This document shows positions 5,054 to 57,528 of a DNA stretch of 57,890 nt, piece after piece. The position numbers and the translations under genes were made by a program. The stretch lies in NCBI GenBank assembly GCA_903929475.1, contig CAIYUV010000131.1:1-57890 (forward strand), written 5' to 3'. The DNA comes from an uncultured Spartobacteria bacterium. Lineage in GTDB: Bacteria > Verrucomicrobiota > Verrucomicrobiia > Chthoniobacterales > Chthoniobacteraceae. Position 1 is the stretch's first letter. Every line of letters begins with the position of its first letter. The notes beneath the pieces are model-generated. The model was not told where the DNA came from. It made no database searches and saw only the letters and a program-made list of their open reading frames with translations.

Positions 5054-6628
5054 ATGAACATCCGCACTTTTACCGCCGCCGCGCTGGCTGGCGTCGCTTT
5101 TACCACCGCACTGAATGCCGCCGACTGGCCGGCTTGGGGTGGCGGCGATCCAGGGCGCAACATGTATTCCGATGCGAAGGGGATTCCCGCGAAATTCGAG
5201 CCGGGAAAATTTAAGAAAAACAGCGAGGAGATTGATATGTCCACGACGCAAAACGTGAAGTGGATCGCGAAGCTCGGCTCGCAGACTTACGGCAACACGG
5301 TCGTCGCTTATAACACCGTCTATATCGGCACGAACAACGCCGGTGCGCGCGACCCGCGCTTCAAGGACGACAAGTCGGTGCTGCTCGCGCTGGAGGAAAA
5401 AACGGGCGATTTGAAATGGCAGTTCACGGTGCCGAAACTCGCGTCGGGGAAGGTGAATGATTGGGAATATCTCGGCTATCTCAGCGCGCCGTTCGTCGAG
5501 GGTAACACGCTTTACTCCGTGACGAGCCGCTGCGAGGTCGTGGCGCTCGATGCCGAGGGGCAGAAAAACGGCAACGACGGGAAATTTAAAGACGAAGGCC
5601 AGTATATGCCGGGGCCAGCGAAGCCGAAGGTGGAGGCGACGGCGAAGGACGCGGACATCCTTTGGAAATACGACATGATGGACGAACTCGGCGTGTTCCC
5701 GCACAACGCATCGAACTGCTCGCCGCTGATTCTCGACAACCGCGTGTATGTTTGCACGAGCAACGGCCAGGACTGGTCGCACGTCACGATTCCCGCTCCG
5801 CAAGCACCGAGTTTCATCGTGCTGGATAAAAAAACGGGCGAACTGCTCGGTGAAGACGACGCCAAGATCGGGCCGCACATTTTCCACGGACAGTGGGCAT
5901 CGCCGAGCGCGGGCATGGTGGATGGAAAATGGCAGGTGTTTTTCGGCGGCGGCGACGGCTTCCTGTATGCGTTCGATGCGGTGCCGGAGAAAGGCGCGGA
6001 GGGCGGCGTGTTCAAGATGCTGTGGAAATTCGACGCCGTGCTCGACGCCTACAAAACGGACAAGACCGGCAAGAAAATCAAATACCCAGCGCCCGATGGC
6101 CCGAGCGAAATCATCGCGACTCCCGTTTTCTACAAAGACAAAATCTACGTCGCAGTCGGCCAGGATCCCGAACACGGCGAAGGCGTTGGTCGTCTCATGT
6201 GCATTGATCCAAAAGGCGCGAAGGGCGACGTGACCAAGTCGGCGCTTGTGTGGGATTTCAAGGACATCAAACGCAGCATTAGCACGGTGGCGATTGACCC
6301 CGCGACCGACCTGCTTTTCACCGGCGACTACAGCGGCTTTGTCTATTGCATTGATACGAAAACCGGAAAGCTCCAGTGGCAGCACGACATGCAGGCGCAC
6401 ATTTGGGGTTCGCCGATGATCGTAGACGGGAAAGTTTACATCGGCGACGAGGATGGCGACCTGTGCGTCTTCGCTGCTGCGAAGGAAAAAAAGCTGCTTA
6501 ACGAAGTGAACATGGGCGCGCCGATCCTCTCCACGCCGGTCGTCGCCAACGGCACGCTCTACATCAGCACGCAGACGCATCTCTACGCGGTTTCCGAAGG
6601 TGCAAAGCCCGAGGAAAAACAAAAGTAA
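5054..6628 (+). CDS. Exported PQQ-like beta-propeller repeat protein
   Basis: A protein of 524 residues with a signal peptide ending near ALNAADWPAW. The mature protein is a propeller of repeated blades with PQQ-enzyme-like motifs (EEKTGDLKWQF, LDKKTGELLGED, IDTKTGKLQWQHD), and its DWPAWGG start is typical of Verrucomicrobia/Planctomycete propellers. It lacks the catalytic Asp and Cys-Cys features of PQQ alcohol dehydrogenases as far as can be read, so a structural, binding or scaffold role is as likely as an enzymatic one. It is a shorter relative of the preceding propeller, without the C-terminal sandwich domain. The MFS carrier starts 24 bp downstream, which implies co-transcription. Confidence 0.85.
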   Translation: MNIRTFTAAALAGVAFTTALNAADWPAWGGGDPGRNMYSDAKGIPAKFEPGKFKKNSEEIDMSTTQNVKWIAKLGSQTYGNTVVAYNTVYIGTNNAGARDPRFKDDKSVLLALEEKTGDLKWQFTVPKLASGKVNDWEYLGYLSAPFVEGNTLYSVTSRCEVVALDAEGQKNGNDGKFKDEGQYMPGPAKPKVEATAKDADILWKYDMMDELGVFPHNASNCSPLILDNRVYVCTSNGQDWSHVTIPAPQAPSFIVLDKKTGELLGEDDAKIGPHIFHGQWASPSAGMVDGKWQVFFGGGDGFLYAFDAVPEKGAEGGVFKMLWKFDAVLDAYKTDKTGKKIKYPAPDGPSEIIATPVFYKDKIYVAVGQDPEHGEGVGRLMCIDPKGAKGDVTKSALVWDFKDIKRSISTVAIDPATDLLFTGDYSGFVYCIDTKTGKLQWQHDMQAHIWGSPMIVDGKVYIGDEDGDLCVFAAAKEKKLLNEVNMGAPILSTPVVANGTLYISTQTHLYAVSEGAKPEEKQK

Positions 6629-37123: not shown

Positions 37124-38606
37124 ATGAAATTTCTCACCGTCCTCCTCGCCCTCGCTGCCAATGCCTTTGCGACGGACAGGCCGAACATCCTCTTCATCAT
37201 GACGGATGACCACGCAGCGCACGCCATTTCCTGCTACGGCTCCAAGGTCAACGAAACACCAAATCTCGACCGCCTCGCCAAATCCGGCGTCCGCTTCACC
37301 CAACGCCTTCGTCACCAACTCCATCTGCACCCCCAGCCGCGCCACACTCCTAACCGGAAAATACTCCCACCTCAATGGCGTCCCCGTCTTCAACAACTTC
37401 GACGGCACCCAGCAGAACGTCGCCAAACTCCTCCAGAGCGCCGGCTACCACACCGGCGTCATCGGCAAATGGCACCTCGGCAGCGACCCCACCGGCTTCG
37501 ACCGCTGGATCATCCTCCCCGGCCAGGGCGTCTATAACAACCCCGCCTTCCTCACCCCTGCAGGCCGCCTCACCGTGAATGGCTACGTCACCGACATCAT
37601 CACCGACCTCGGCACCGAGTGGCTCGACACGCGACCGAAGAACAAACCTTTCTTCCTCCTCCTCCATCACAAAGCCCCGCATCGCGAATGGACGCCCAGC
37701 GAAAAATACCGCGCCGAGTTTTCCAAAAAAACCATCCCCGAGCCATCCACGCTCTTCGACAAATACGACAGCCGCCCCGCCGCATTGCCCGAAAACCGGC
37801 AGACCATCGCCCGCGACCTCAACCGCAACGATCTCAAAATGGACCCGCCCTCCGGCATCACCGGCGACGCCCTCACCCGCTGGAAATACCAGCGCTATAT
37901 GCAGGACTACCTCGCCTGCGTCCAAAGCGTGGACGACAGCGTCGGTAAAATCCTCGACTACCTCGCCGCCCACGACCTCGCCAAAAACACCCTCGTCATC
38001 TACACCGCCGACAACGGCTTCTTCCTCGGCGACCTCGGCCTTTTCGATAAACGCTTCATGTATGAGCCCAGCCTCCGCGTCCCCCTCATCGCCTGCGGCC
38101 CCGGCGTGAAAGCAGGCACCGTCACCGATTCCTTCGCCCTCAACATAGATTACGCCCCCACCTTCCTCGCCGCCGCCGGTGAAAAAATCCCCGCCGATAT
38201 GCAAGGCCGCAGCCTCCTCCCGATCCTCAGCGGCGAACCGCCCGCCGACTGGCGCACCGCCATGTATTACCGCTATTACCACGACCCCGGCCACCACAAC
38301 ACCCGCGCCCACCTCGGCATCCGAACCGCCACCCACAAGCTCATCCATTACTGGAAAAAAGACGCATGGGAGTTGTTCGACCTCACCACCGACCCGCAAG
38401 AACAACACAACCTCGCCAACGATCCCGCCCACGCAGCCAAACTCGCCGAACTCAAAACCCAGCTCGCCGCTTTGAAAATGGAGATGAAAGACGAAGATCA
38501 ATTCGCCGCCACCCAGCCCAAGGACGGCGTAGACAACCAAAGACCCTTCAAACCTCTTGGCGTAAAAAAATCCAGCGAAGCGATCCCACTTTCTGTTTCC
38601 AAATAA
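37124..38606 (+). pseudogene. Exported arylsulfatase-type sulfatase with a one-base frameshift
   Basis: The 5' part (37124-37300) encodes a signal peptide ([16 protein letters not shown]) and the metal-binding start [11 protein letters not shown] up to KSGVRFT. At the CCC run 37299-37301 one extra C shifts the frame; dropping it restores [20 protein letters not shown]. From there the +1 frame runs to 38606 with the formylglycine site Cys at 37326-37328 (CTPSR), the second metal/active-site motifs ([26 protein letters not shown]) and a normal C-terminus. With the shift corrected it is a complete type I sulfatase of about 493 residues, expected in the periplasm. It needs a formylglycine-generating enzyme, not seen here. 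Either a recent null mutation or a sequencing error in the C run explains it. Confidence 0.85.
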
Positions 38607-38621
38607 TTTCTAAAACCTTTC

Positions 38622-38720
38622 ATGGCTTTCTTGGTGAAACCAGTCTTCGGCGAAGCACAACGCATGGAGCTAGCCCACGTTCACGAGGCGCTGAAAAACG
38701 GTCTGATCATTTTGTCGTGA
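38622..38720 (+). CDS. Possible 32-residue small ORF
   Basis: In the gap between the sulfatase and the TIGR03118 gene, an ATG at 38622 opens MAFLVKPVFGEAQRMELAHV and continues to a TGA at 38718-38720. The peptide is amphipathic and ends NGLIILS. There is no clear ribosome-binding site and no recognised homologue; it may be a gene remnant or a chance frame. The rest of the gap, to 38824, holds a T8 run near 38742 without a proper stem and a TTGACA at 38754 with no good -10. Confidence 0.2.
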   Translation: MAFLVKPVFGEAQRMELAHVHEALKNGLIILS

Positions 38721-38824
38721 GTGACGGGCGCCATGGGAGTTTTTTTTGCAACCATTGACAGTGGGTGGTTTTAAGCAGTCAGTCCTTCAACTCCACTGAA
38801 CAGAAACCACAAACTCCCTATAAA

Positions 38825-40027
38825 ATGAAGCTGAACACATTCTTCAAAGCCACACTTGCTGCCACACTGCTTATTATTTCCGCCGCGAGGGCGGAACATT
38901 TCGCATGGCGCAACCTCCAATCCGACATCCACGGCGTGGCTCCCGGCACCGACGAAAATCTCGTCAACCCTTGGGATATCGCTGTCGGCCCGGACGGTCA
39001 CCGCATCTGGGTCGCCAACAACGGCACCGGCACGGCGACGGTGTATGACGCGCTGGGCAAACCCGTGCCCGTCGACAATCCGCTCGTGGTGAGTATTCCC
39101 GCAGCGACGCAAGGTTTTACCGGCACGCCGACTGGGTTGGTGAGGCATCTGGCTGCATTCGGCGCAACGCCGAGCAGCGATTTCATCATCCACAATGCGA
39201 GCATGACAGTTTCTGGATCCGCAAAATATCTTTTCTGCTCCGAGGATGGCGTCATTTCCGGCTGGAACCCGGACGTGGATGCGACGAACGCGCGTATTGT
39301 CGTGGATAATTCTGCGAATGGTGCCGTCTACAAAGGAATGGCCATTTCGCACATCGGCGAGGGTGCCGTCCGCCTCTACGTGGCGAATTTCAAAGGCGGA
39401 AAAATCGAAGTGTATGACGGTGATTTCGCGCCGGACACGGCACTCACCACCAAGATCAACGCAGCGGATCTTGCTCCGATAGCGGGATACGCTCCTTACA
39501 ACATCAAGCACTACGCAATTCGCAAAGCACACAGCGTCTCGCGCTACCTCATCGTGGCATATGCGAAGCAGGATTCCAGCGGGGCACAGGAACTTCACGG
39601 AGCGGGGCTGGGCTACATCAATGTGTTCGATTCGGCTGGGAATTTCGTGAAGCGGCTCGTGGATGTGAGCCTGGATGCGAACAATCCGAATGATCTCAAT
39701 GCTCCGTGGGGCATGGCGATTTCGCGTCATCAAGCCGGTGCCTCCGATGATGTTCTTTTTGTCGGTAATTTCGGCGACGGGAAAATCCATCGCTATCGTC
39801 TCGGCGGAAATTTTTCCGGCACGCCTCGTGGTTCCTTGAAGGACGCCAAAGGCGTAGAGCTTCAATTCGACGGGCTATGGGCACTGCACTTCGGTTCCAA
39901 GGTTCAGTCGGAGAAAATTGCCGCCCGCGATACTGATGAACTTGATGAGCCCGACTCGGTGCTCTTTTTTACCGCCGGCATTGCCGACGAAGGACACGGC
40001 TTGTTTGGGGTTATACTCCGGAGATAA
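38825..40027 (+). CDS. Exported TIGR03118-family protein
   Basis: A protein of 400 residues with a signal peptide (MKLNTFFKATLAATLLIISA then RAEHF). The mature sequence is a beta-propeller-like chain with the family features LVNPWDIAVGPDGHRIWVAN, GVISGWNPDVD, GMAISHIGEGAVRLYVANFK, NDLNAPWGMAIS and a final GIADEGHGLFGVI, which I recognise as TIGR03118. The function of this family is unknown. The start at 38825 was chosen for the signal peptide. It is convergent with the large ABC gene; only 30 bp separate the stops and no terminator is obvious there. Confidence 0.85.
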   Translation: MKLNTFFKATLAATLLIISAARAEHFAWRNLQSDIHGVAPGTDENLVNPWDIAVGPDGHRIWVANNGTGTATVYDALGKPVPVDNPLVVSIPAATQGFTGTPTGLVRHLAAFGATPSSDFIIHNASMTVSGSAKYLFCSEDGVISGWNPDVDATNARIVVDNSANGAVYKGMAISHIGEGAVRLYVANFKGGKIEVYDGDFAPDTALTTKINAADLAPIAGYAPYNIKHYAIRKAHSVSRYLIVAYAKQDSSGAQELHGAGLGYINVFDSAGNFVKRLVDVSLDANNPNDLNAPWGMAISRHQAGASDDVLFVGNFGDGKIHRYRLGGNFSGTPRGSLKDAKGVELQFDGLWALHFGSKVQSEKIAARDTDELDEPDSVLFFTAGIADEGHGLFGVILRR

Positions 40028-40057
40028 AAAGCAGCCACCACCCGCAGGCGCGCTGGT

Positions 40058-51595: not shown

Positions 51596-52489
51596 ATGAA
51601 AAAATTACTATTCGCCCTTCTCACCATCGTCTCGGTTCTCCATGCGCAAAAGGAGGACGCTCAGCCGGACGCGAAGCAAATTGCAGCCATGCAACACGCG
51701 ATGAAGACAATTGCCGAACTCGAATACAAAACCGGCGAAATCCCGCTCATCGGCGGGAAGGCAAAAATCAAACTCGGCGAAGACTTCCGCTACCTCGATC
51801 CCGCCAACGCCCGCAAGGTGCTCGTTGATATTTGGTCCAATCCCCCGGAAGCAGGCAGCACCCTCGGCATGATCGTGCCGAAAGGGATCAACTTTCTGGA
51901 CAACGATACATGGGTCGCAGTCCTCGAATGGAAGCCTGATGGTTATGTGAAGGACGAGGAATTTTCCTCCATTGATTTCAACAAGATGCTCGCCGACTTG
52001 AAAGAGGCCAACAAGAGCGAGAACGCGGAACGAATGAAGGGAGGATACGGGAGACTGGAACTCAGCGGATGGGCCGAGCAGCCGCATTACGACCGCAACA
52101 CACACAAACTCTATTGGGCAAAGTCATTCGACAGGGACGGCCCCGTTCAACAACTGAATTACGACATCCGCGTTCTTGGGCGTGAAGGCGTTCTTGAAGT
52201 CAGCATCATGTCCTCGATGCCTCAGTTCAATGACATCAAAGCTAAATCCTCCGGAATCCTCGCCGTAGTGGATTTTACCGAGGGCAACCGCTATGCCGAT
52301 TACAAATCCGGCGACAAAGTGGCCACCTACGGCATCGCCGGTCTCATCGCGGGCGGCGTGCTGCTCAAGAGCGGATTCTTCAAGGTGCTTTTGACCGCAC
52401 TCATCGCAGCCAAAAAATTCGTCGTCATCGGCGTCGTCGCCATCGGCGCGTGGATCAAAAAGCTCTTGGGCGGGCGCAAACAAGCGTAG
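51596..52489 (+). CDS. DUF2167 family membrane protein
   Basis: A protein of 297 residues with a signal peptide (MKKLLFALLTIVSVLHAQ). The large extracytoplasmic part has the DUF2167 pattern (GMIVPKGINFLDNDTWVAVL, WAEQPHYDRNTHKLYWAKSF, YDIRVLGREGVLEVSIMSSM). Two C-terminal hydrophobic segments follow (GIAGLIAGGVLLKSGFFKVL and KKFVVIGVVAIGAW), then a basic end. The family's function is unknown. The start at 51596 was chosen for the signal peptide. The GNAT gene begins 8 bp downstream. Confidence 0.9.
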   Translation: MKKLLFALLTIVSVLHAQKEDAQPDAKQIAAMQHAMKTIAELEYKTGEIPLIGGKAKIKLGEDFRYLDPANARKVLVDIWSNPPEAGSTLGMIVPKGINFLDNDTWVAVLEWKPDGYVKDEEFSSIDFNKMLADLKEANKSENAERMKGGYGRLELSGWAEQPHYDRNTHKLYWAKSFDRDGPVQQLNYDIRVLGREGVLEVSIMSSMPQFNDIKAKSSGILAVVDFTEGNRYADYKSGDKVATYGIAGLIAGGVLLKSGFFKVLLTALIAAKKFVVIGVVAIGAWIKKLLGGRKQA

Positions 52490-52497
52490 CTCCCAAT

Positions 52498-52986
52498 TTG
52501 AATCTCCGCCCCGCCACGGCAGCCGACATCCCGCTGATTCGCACCCTCGCACAGCGCATCTGGCGTGAGAGCTACCCCGGCATCATCAGCGGCGAGCAAA
52601 TCGAATTCATGCTCGGCTGGATGTATTCCACCGAACAACTCGCCAGCGAATTTGCCGCGTGCGTGCCGTGGGAATTTGTCGAGGAAAACGGCGAACCCAT
52701 CGGCTTTCTCTCCTACCAATTGGAGGAGGATAGCCGTGTGAAACTCAACAAACTCTACCTCATCCCCGAGCACCAGCATCGCGGACACAGCCGCACCCTC
52801 CTAGCCCACGTCTGCGAACGTGCCCGAGCACTCGGTGCACGCGAAGTCTGGCTGCAAGTCAACAAACGCAACGTCCGCGCCATCGCCGCATATGTGAAAG
52901 CCGACTTCCACATCGCGAGCGAAGCCGTCGCCGACATCGGCCACGGCTTCGTGATGGACGACTACTTCATGGCGAAGGCGGTGTGA
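52498..52986 (+). CDS. GNAT family N-acetyltransferase
   Basis: A protein of about 162 residues. A TTG at 52498 (LNLRPATAADIPLIRTLAQ) is the natural start of a GNAT fold; an earlier GTG at 52450 would overlap DUF2167. The acetyl-CoA-binding pattern V-x-L-x-x-L-Y-L-x-P-x-x-x-x-R/Q-G-x-G is present as LNKLYLIPEHQHRGHSRTLL, followed by the VWLQVNKRNVRAIAAYVKAD helix pair. The C-terminal [15 protein letters not shown] matches a second, orphan copy at 54518-54567. The acceptor substrate is unknown. Confidence 0.85.
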   Translation: MNLRPATAADIPLIRTLAQRIWRESYPGIISGEQIEFMLGWMYSTEQLASEFAACVPWEFVEENGEPIGFLSYQLEEDSRVKLNKLYLIPEHQHRGHSRTLLAHVCERARALGAREVWLQVNKRNVRAIAAYVKADFHIASEAVADIGHGFVMDDYFMAKAV

Positions 52987-52989
52987 GTG

Positions 52990-54450
52990 TCACCGCTTTT
53001 TCTTGGAGGTGCTCACAGGCTCCAACCATATTTTTGCCAGACTTTTGTCCTCAAGGATCGCTTTGCGAATAGCGTGGCGAACACACAGTAATTCTTCGGC
53101 TGGATTTTTGACGATCAGGGTTGAAGTAGCAGGAGAATACATAGCAAATCTATCTGGCCCAAAAACTACACCCCGGGGTTCAATGAATGCGCCCGGCGCA
53201 AATTTTTTCTGTTCTGTGTTGTTCCTAAACAGCGAAAGAGGAACCTTATATTCGCGAATAATATGGTTTTCCCTGTCTTGCATCTGCCGCGCGGTGATTC
53301 CCCATCGCCCATCTGGTTGCGCTCCAAACTTGCAGCCGAGATCGAAGAGCATCAGAAGCAGCGCATCCGCAGCATCTCCTCGTTTAAGTTTGAGACTTAC
53401 AGGGCCGAGTGATGCCAGCTTTGGTTGAAGAAACGGCCACTTTAGAAACGCTTCCTTGGTTCCCGGAATTTTCCGACAAGCTGTCCGTAATAGTTCCAAA
53501 GCTTCACCTAAAGTTGGCGCTTCAATTTCCAGATTTTTCGCCTCCGTAAAGCCGGGCGGCTCTGATGCATCAACCAACTCGATTTCACTGAGGTGTTGAA
53601 TAGCCTCAATTAAGTTGAGTTCGCCCTTGTTGAGTGGTGTAACCCAGTGGTTATTGGCCGTATCTTCGAGCGATGCGATATAACGACGTAGCTTCCAAAT
53701 TTCCTGCGTCGGGGCCTTGAGGGCGAGAACCGTATCGCCATTTTTCCATTGGACTTGGACTCTCTCATCGAGTTTTGCATCGAACAAGATTTGCTCCTTC
53801 CAACCCAACACACTGTTTAGCCAGCCTTGGCCGTAATAGTCGGTTAATTTTCTCCAATTCACAAAGGTATGAACTGAGGCAGGCACTTTGATTTCTGCTT
53901 GTTCGCCCCACCCTTCTACCGGTGGAGAAAAATAGATGCCATCACCCAAAGTCCCTACACCAGCAACAGTGTAACGATAGTATTTCATCTCCGACAGGTA
54001 ACTGATCGCATCTGCCACCTTAATGTCGCGAGCGTTTGTCCAAACACGAATTGGTTCGGGCTTTTGCTGTAGGCTGTCGTTTGCCGGTTCTGGTTGCCCA
54101 ACGGGAGTGCTGCTTGGCTCGGATGCCTCCGGAAGCGAAATTTCCTGTGGTGCAGGTGTCGGCGAGATTTTTCGGATTTCATCTTCCACCCGCTCTGGGG
54201 TGAAGAGCTTCACGCCCTTTCCTGTTGGATCGACAGAACGAATCAATTCCTCCAACAAACCCCACGCTTCCTCGTAGGTCACGTTGTTCCATTCAATCCG
54301 GGGGATGTTCAGTTGGATCACCGCGTTGATTCTCTCCTCGTTTTGTTTCACCGCTTTGTCCAAGTTGTCTTCCGACGACGGGGGCTGAGCCATGCACGAA
54401 GCGGTGGCAAAGAGGAGAGCGGCGAGCAGGCTTTTTGGTGAGTAGCCCAT
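52990..54450 (-). CDS. Exported protein with STN-like (secretin N-terminal-like) repeats
   Basis: A protein of 486 residues. Signal peptide MGYSPKSLLAALLFATASCM, possibly a lipobox-like Cys. Several segments of about 40-50 residues follow a beta-alpha-beta pattern typical of STN/secretin N-domains: IPRIEWNNVTYEEAWGLLEE; RVWTNARDIKVADAISYLSE; EIEAPTLGEALELLRTACRK; and VSLKLKRGDAADALLLMLFD. A Pro-rich linker lies between the first two (about 95-130). Near the end, YSPATSTLIVKNPAEELLCV resembles an N1-type secretin subdomain. No secretin beta-barrel follows, so it is not a full GspD. I infer a periplasmic adaptor or scaffold. It lies on the minus strand between the GNAT gene and acs, flanked by duplicated GNAT sequence. 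Confidence 0.65.
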   Translation of the reverse strand: MGYSPKSLLAALLFATASCMAQPPSSEDNLDKAVKQNEERINAVIQLNIPRIEWNNVTYEEAWGLLEELIRSVDPTGKGVKLFTPERVEDEIRKISPTPAPQEISLPEASEPSSTPVGQPEPANDSLQQKPEPIRVWTNARDIKVADAISYLSEMKYYRYTVAGVGTLGDGIYFSPPVEGWGEQAEIKVPASVHTFVNWRKLTDYYGQGWLNSVLGWKEQILFDAKLDERVQVQWKNGDTVLALKAPTQEIWKLRRYIASLEDTANNHWVTPLNKGELNLIEAIQHLSEIELVDASEPPGFTEAKNLEIEAPTLGEALELLRTACRKIPGTKEAFLKWPFLQPKLASLGPVSLKLKRGDAADALLLMLFDLGCKFGAQPDGRWGITARQMQDRENHIIREYKVPLSLFRNNTEQKKFAPGAFIEPRGVVFGPDRFAMYSPATSTLIVKNPAEELLCVRHAIRKAILEDKSLAKIWLEPVSTSKKKR

Positions 54451-54517
54451 GTGCGGAGGCTACGGGGGCAAATTTTCCGTTTCAAGGAATCCTATCATTA
54501 CTCACGGCAACGTAATG

Positions 54518-54567
54518 TCGGTCACGGCTTCGTGATGGATGACTACTTCATGGCAAAGGCGGTGTAG
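54518..54567 (+). pseudogene. Orphan copy of the 3' end of the GNAT gene
   Basis: These 50 bases match the last 50 bases of the GNAT gene (52937-52986) except for five positions. Read in frame they give [15 protein letters not shown] and a stop, identical in protein to the GNAT C-terminus. The base differences are a C/T in the His codon's predecessor, a C/T in an Asp codon, a G/A in an Ala codon (all synonymous) and two in the stop (TGA versus TAG). No upstream part of a GNAT gene adjoins it, so it is a remnant 67 bp before acs. Confidence 0.85.
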
Positions 54568-54634
54568 GCGAAACTTCATGCGAGACTTGTCGTGTGGGCG
54601 CGGGGCCGCTAGACACCCCAACCTTTCCAACGTC

Positions 54635-56599
<1,965 letters not shown>

Positions 56600-56613: not shown

Positions 56614-57528
56614 CTATTCCGTTTTGGGAACATCCGCTTCCACTTCGTGCAGCCGACCGTAGTCCACGGTCAGCCTGCCGTCTTCCATTTCGGTGTAAAT
56701 TTCCACGAAGCGCTTGCCGAAGTGGATGTCGCGCCAGCCGTAGTCGTGTTGTTTTTGGACGGGTGCCTGAATCACCGCATCCACGCAGACCACCGAGCCC
56801 ATCAGTCGCGTGTCTGTTTTTTCCAAATCCGCCACGGTCATTCCATGGAGCGGGCTCTGTTCATCAATCACGTGCCGCAGCGTGAGGGCGACGGGGAACA
56901 TGATCAGCCGGTCGAAGGTCAGCTTCAGCGTGTAAAAGCGGCGCGCGAAATCGCCCTCCTGGACAGGTTCGTTGCGCAGGAGCATGAGCCGGAACTCCGC
57001 TTCCACCATGGACTGATGGCGCATGTTTGCCACGCGCAGCATCAAGGTCGGCTTGCCATCGAACTGCGTAATCACCGCCGAATTACTGAACACGATGCGG
57101 GCCGTGGGGCGCGAGAAACGCACAAAGATCAAACCCGTGATCACTGCCATCCAAAACATGCCAATCACGATCTCAATAGTCGTCACGATGTGGCCGTATG
57201 TAGTGGCAGGATACATGTGGCCGTAGCCCACCGTGGCCAGCGTCTCCACGCTGAAAAAAGTGGCCTCAAGAAAATTCCCCGGCGGCAGTTCGGCGATGCA
57301 GCCACTTTGCGCAGTGTAGGCGACGGCGAAAGCCAGATTCAGCGCTACGAAAAAACCAAGCACGAGAGCGGCGAAGCGCGGCCAGCTCAGCGAAAGAATC
57401 CAGTGATACACATCGCGCCAGTCCCACGTCGTGGCGTTGATTTTCACGAACTCGATCTTTCCAGCCCGCACAGAAATCGGAGTGTCTTTCTTCTTCATGG
57501 CTCCCGGCATTGCTCCGCTGTTCCGCAT
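56614..57528 (-). CDS. Inward-rectifier (KirBac-type) potassium channel
   Basis: A protein of 294-304 residues; three possible starts (57528, 57510, 57498) are near each other, and the one at 57498 (MKKKDTPISVRAGKIEFVKI) is also plausible. An N-terminal slide-helix region is followed by TM1 (ALVLGFFVALNLAFAVAYTA), a pore helix and selectivity filter (TVGYG, residues 99-103), TM2 (VIGMFWMAVITGLIFVRFSR) and a cytoplasmic Kir beta-sandwich (FSNSAVITQFDGKPTLMLRV, MVEAEFRLMLLRNEPVQEGD, LTLRHVIDEQSPLHGM). The ARI segment after TM2 is the usual link to the C-terminal domain. It converges on acs with a 14-bp gap. Confidence 0.9.
   Translation of the reverse strand: MRNSGAMPGAMKKKDTPISVRAGKIEFVKINATTWDWRDVYHWILSLSWPRFAALVLGFFVALNLAFAVAYTAQSGCIAELPPGNFLEATFFSVETLATVGYGHMYPATTYGHIVTTIEIVIGMFWMAVITGLIFVRFSRPTARIVFSNSAVITQFDGKPTLMLRVANMRHQSMVEAEFRLMLLRNEPVQEGDFARRFYTLKLTFDRLIMFPVALTLRHVIDEQSPLHGMTVADLEKTDTRLMGSVVCVDAVIQAPVQKQHDYGWRDIHFGKRFVEIYTEMEDGRLTVDYGRLHEVEADVPKTE

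Follow-up and report, generated by a model that had tools for sequence, protein, structure and literature searches.

A single-gene insertion with a 48-bp duplication at the GNAT-acs junction of an uncultured Spartobacteria genome

How a gene for an exported protein came to lie between two copies of the same gene end is the question raised by a locus in an uncultured freshwater Spartobacteria bacterium. The window, that is, the whole stretch of 57,890 nucleotides analysed here, belongs to a 4.5 Mb draft genome of 295 contigs. It was compared with Chthoniobacteraceae/Spartobacteria MAGs, among which G007 (CANJNZ01) and G005 (CAMBOD01) are the two nearest sequenced relatives. The sequence-only reading had proposed tandem GNAT acetyltransferase genes, one of which was replaced by the intervening STN-like gene.

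The GNAT-acs junction and its empty counterpart

The GNAT gene (52498-52986, plus strand; stop codon TGA) encodes a protein of 162 aa (Pfam Acetyltransf_1, E 1.3e-15) with amino acid identities of 93% and 92% to its counterparts in G007 and G005. In these relatives it is directly followed by acs, the acetyl-CoA synthetase gene (54635-56599, plus strand, in the window). Both genomes are colinear with the window at GNAT-acs, and G007 across most of the window. In each, a single GNAT gene continues straight into the acs leader, the 48-nt sequence that is repeated in the window occurs once, and the STN-like gene is absent. These empty sites indicate that the window holds an insertion, and tandem GNAT genes are not needed to explain it. 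The STN-like gene was thus inserted, with a 48-bp duplication, into an otherwise conserved GNAT-acs junction, as had been suspected from its position beside a duplicated GNAT end. The insertion splits the gene pair, leaving acs with its 69-nt leader and with the start of the inserted gene opposite it. None of the remaining genus members with GNAT had acs in the stretches compared around that gene, and their genomes also lacked the inserted gene.

The replacement of one of two tandem paralogues would account for a second copy that reads as coding, but the relatives carry one GNAT gene next to acs, and the intact second GNAT gene that was to be sought before acs was found in none of the genus genomes. 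It had been held that relatives lacking both the STN-like gene and the duplicated end would refute the proposal; G007 and G005 are such relatives, and they refute a tandem history but are what one would expect of an insertion that made the duplication. We therefore regard the tandem origin as extremely improbable. A deletion in G007 and G005 in place of an insertion was also considered and rejected, since one more gain would have to be assumed beforehand, and recombination of the two repeats by a single crossover fails to yield the base pattern of either genome.

An assembly artefact, in which two strain variants of a metagenome bin were joined, might be suspected from the 295-contig draft and from the MAG origin of the related genomes. 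The window contains no N runs (0), its synteny with G007 extends for tens of kb leftward and rightward to the window end, and joining two variants would not bring a 1.5-kb gene between the copies; such an error is hardly credible here.

The inserted DNA and its product

The insert (52985-54517, about 1533 bp) contains one gene, which encodes an exported protein of 486 aa (52990-54450, minus strand) and lies tail to tail with GNAT, the two stops being 3 nt apart. Its GC content is 0.50, compared with 0.60 for GNAT and 0.62 for acs, and the third-codon-position GC of the STN-like gene is 0.52 versus 0.76 (GNAT) and 0.83 (acs). The insert DNA had no match among 40 family genomes. No full-length relative of the protein was found in 10 genus, 213 order and 387 phylum genomes, and the order and phylum genomes yielded partial matches to secretins only. 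The absence of the insert from the relatives' DNA, together with these partial protein matches, makes a gain in this lineage the simplest history. Searches of genome contigs, viral contigs, plasmids, PHROGs and PDB gave no useful homologue.

Direct repeats that lie at a gene 3' end and restore its stop codon are reminiscent of integrase sites; on this view the 48-nt repeats would be attL and attR, and the insert a small element at the GNAT 3' end that is mobilised in trans. Against this, the single ORF of the insert carries no transposase or integrase domain, no terminal inverted repeats of the insert were seen, neither the repeat nor the insert has another copy in the genome or genus, and no homologue was found in viral contigs or plasmids. 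The repeats do not qualify as att sites, and site-specific integration is very unlikely.

The inserted protein matched nothing in Pfam above the cut-off, Pfam Secretin included. It gave a partial match to NF042912, the Amuc_1098 family of type IV pilus outer-membrane proteins (E 3.7e-6), and an hhalign comparison aligned residues 39-83 and 391-460 with Amuc_1098 N-domain segments. The likeness to this family resides in these two segments; in contrast to the Amuc_1098 secretin, the protein lacks the pore domain, and its score of 25.3 bits against a cut-off of 750 places it outside the family. The label STN-like is accordingly justified at the level of the Amuc_1098 N-domain segments, but not by any Pfam hit above the cut-off. 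By inspection, the N-terminus is likely to be a signal peptide. Single-sequence structure prediction was poor (pLDDT 36), and an internal two-fold repeat, considered as a candidate, was unsupported. Its sequence points to a probable location in the periplasm or envelope and to an assembly from secretin N-domain parts.

Elsewhere in the window, a further insert of about 1.49 kb (38569-40057), also with one gene, is absent from the syntenic place in G007. Its ORF (38828-40027) encodes an exported NHL-repeat-like protein, and no direct repeat flanks it.

Repeat copies, palindrome and recombination tract

The repeated GNAT end was found on both sides of the STN-like gene as described, with copy 1 at 52937-52984 (left, plus strand) and copy 2 at 54518-54565 (right, plus strand); 45 of 48 nt are identical (94%) at a spacing of 1581. 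The pair is the strongest direct repeat of the window apart from tandem arrays near the window start (self-blastn E = 6e-14). Of the 50 bases first counted, 48 belong to the repeat and the last two are stop-codon bases that differ between the copies (TGA in copy 1, TAG in copy 2). Copy 1 is the end of the intact GNAT gene, its 48 nt reaching up to the closing GA of the stop codon, whereas copy 2 is a GNAT tail without a gene.

The three differences between the copies (GGC/GGT, GAC/GAT and GCG/GCA) are all synonymous in the GNAT frame, as the sequence-only reading had stated. The chance that three random transitions in the repeat would all be synonymous is about 0.025, and for any changes it is 0.007. 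The stop TGA of copy 1 is shared with the GNAT genes of G002, G003 and G004, and the TAG of copy 2 with those of G007 and G005, where the 48 nt continue into the stop and the acs leader in the same way as copy 2 does. Only 1/48 sites of copy 2 is private to the window (p 0.022 at the native rate), so that copy 2 may also be of the G007/G005 type. The coding past that had been ascribed to the second copy fits these data, but a different allele of the one GNAT gene, and not another GNAT gene, would supply it most simply, and copy 2 is best understood as the tail of such an allele.

On its left, the duplicated segment begins at the centre of a 32-nt near-palindrome (52920-52951), CGAAGCCGTCGCCGA-CA-TCGGCCACGGCTTCG, with 15-bp arms, one mismatch and a 2-nt loop; its first base is also that of the right arm. 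Palindromes of such quality number one in the window and 11 in 1.05 Mb. The hairpin has a DNA fold of -17 kcal/mol (z -3.0), and the same hairpin occurs in G007 (z -3.7), which lacks the insert, indicating that the hairpin probably predates the event. Among 4000 random window positions none had an arm of 15; the maximum was 14, seen twice, probably through resampling of the same site. The best edge palindrome at 11 other repeat pairs had an arm of 9, and a survey of direct-repeat pairs, several of them paralogue motifs, in about 1 Mb of the source genome plus contig C1 of G007 found no comparable palindrome at their edges. The link between palindrome and duplication was noted post hoc and at this single locus.

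Two further direct repeats of the same survey are recorded here as separate observations. In this genome, a 321-bp repeat, 94% identical, surrounds a reading frame of 1515 aa (L138:444-764 and 5532-5852), and a 73-bp repeat, 97% identical, surrounds a short reading frame (L109:120-191 and 930-1002), the latter apparently being two copies of one gene start.

The gene could also have been captured at the hairpin, through a staggered break or a template switch, with 48 bp duplicated in the same step; the copies would then have been identical at first and have diverged later. The single-copy empty sites of G007 and G005 and the position of the duplication edge on the palindrome centre agree with such a course, as does the change peculiar to copy 2, GCG to GCA, a GC-to-AT transition expected of idle DNA. 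The purely synonymous differences are harder to reconcile with it, given the probability of about 0.025 for random transitions, and it offers no explanation for the recombination tract at GNAT, described below. We consider it possible but somewhat doubtful.

The GNAT side of the insert is a homologous-recombination tract of G007/G005 type (52319-52984), which covers the end of a DUF2167 gene and all of GNAT. Over the background, G007 and G005 are about 95% identical to each other and each about 82% identical to the window, as expected of sisters with the source genome outside. From about 52319 to the insert, the three are roughly equidistant (about 92%). Sites private to the window make up 23/91 of the variable sites in the tract versus 488/651 outside it (LLR 42, 0/200 permutations; Fisher test on site classes, p 4.5e-12), and fourfold-site identity between the window and G007 is 0.79 in GNAT, where the three lineages are equidistant, versus 0.62-0.69 in its neighbours. 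The drop in private sites and the equidistance together indicate an exchange with the G007/G005 group on the GNAT side. Such tracts are common, about 31% of the window's 300-bp bins being more than 0.91 identical to G007, so the position of this one may be coincidence. Separately, an ion-channel-like gene at 56614-57528 has a fourfold identity to G007 of 0.87, far above its neighbours, which suggests another recombination tract.

On the right, tract ends at 54575 (the repeat) and 54717 (early acs) fit equally well. This equality, and the resemblance of copy 2 to a G007/G005-type allele, would also be expected if insertion and duplication had arisen elsewhere in the G007/G005 group and the stretch from 52319 to about 54717 had been imported by two-sided homologous recombination. 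Yet the right flank (54566-54765), which is partly non-coding, has 16/198 private sites, above the tract rate (p 0.002), and no such donor is present among the sampled genomes; import of the whole stretch is unlikely.

A proposed route of gene entry

The reading we prefer, with a probability of roughly one in two, is that incoming DNA of a close relative underwent homologous recombination on the GNAT side and an illegitimate join on the other side. DNA in which the STN-like gene stood behind a G007/G005-type GNAT gene would have entered a cell of this lineage, or of a close relative that later donated the region. The resident DNA may have broken, or replication switched template, at the hairpin. 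The left end would then have been repaired by homologous copying of the incoming DNA, which ran along GNAT and on into the STN-like gene, and the right end joined without homology to resident DNA starting at the hairpin centre. Copy 2 would be what the resident DNA kept on the right side of the break, namely the final 48 nt of its GNAT allele together with the acs leader, and copy 1 would represent the end of the incoming allele. With the break at the hairpin and homology ending at the GNAT stop, the length of the duplication would be the distance between them, and with copies derived from two GNAT alleles, the synonymous differences would be explained without a paralogue.

Several results weigh on this preferred route, among them the two equally fitting right tract ends, the single private site of copy 2 and the commonness of such tracts in the window. 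The obvious joining and hairpin-cutting enzymes, Ku and SbcD, were not found in the source genome (the SbcD model gave matches in 13/14 control genomes), where DprA was found. In addition, no donor with GNAT adjoining the STN-like gene was present in the genus, family, order and phylum genomes searched.

The locus is a new case of a known kind, belonging either to insertions with long target duplication or to homology-facilitated illegitimate recombination. The former was described from a Helicobacter pylori genome comparison (Nobusato et al. 2000; PMC1643837, PMC3031569). In these accounts, a gene absent from a close relative lies between direct copies of the relative's single sequence, and the duplication is long, variable in length and made without involvement of a transposase. 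The present locus likewise has a single-copy empty site, 48-nt repeats that exceed transposon target duplications, and no transposase or integrase. The H. pylori passengers are mostly restriction-modification genes, whereas the passenger here is an exported secretin-N-domain protein, and the site differs from those cases in that a palindrome and a homologous tract mark it.

Competent bacteria provide documented examples of homology-facilitated illegitimate recombination (PMC2884548, PMC5361080). The process has been proposed for variable segments of E. coli (PMC2884548) and for the displacement of effector modules in Vibrio cholerae, where old 3' ends stay downstream (PMC5361080). Common to these cases and the present one are homology on one side and a downstream 3' remnant, and under the preferred route a non-homologous join opposite would be shared as well; unlike in V. 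cholerae, the remnant here is 48 nt of the GNAT gene and not of an immunity gene (PMC5361080). A homologous tract on one side is present at this locus (52319-52984), in a window where such tracts are common.

A more general and rather speculative suggestion, which we hold only tentatively, is that hairpin palindromes at gene ends could serve as entry points where incoming homologous DNA and its passenger gene are captured in a genome in which SbcD and Ku were not found. Replication would stall or break at the hairpin centre, and the neighbour's tail would be duplicated from the centre onward. Should the link to palindromes prove true at other loci, it would indicate where such joins occur. Single-gene gains without mobile-element machinery make up a large share of bacterial diversity, but it is seldom that their joints can be read. 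At this locus, the empty site, the tract and the palindrome at the joint are all visible, providing a testable model of how genes enter Verrucomicrobiota genomes.
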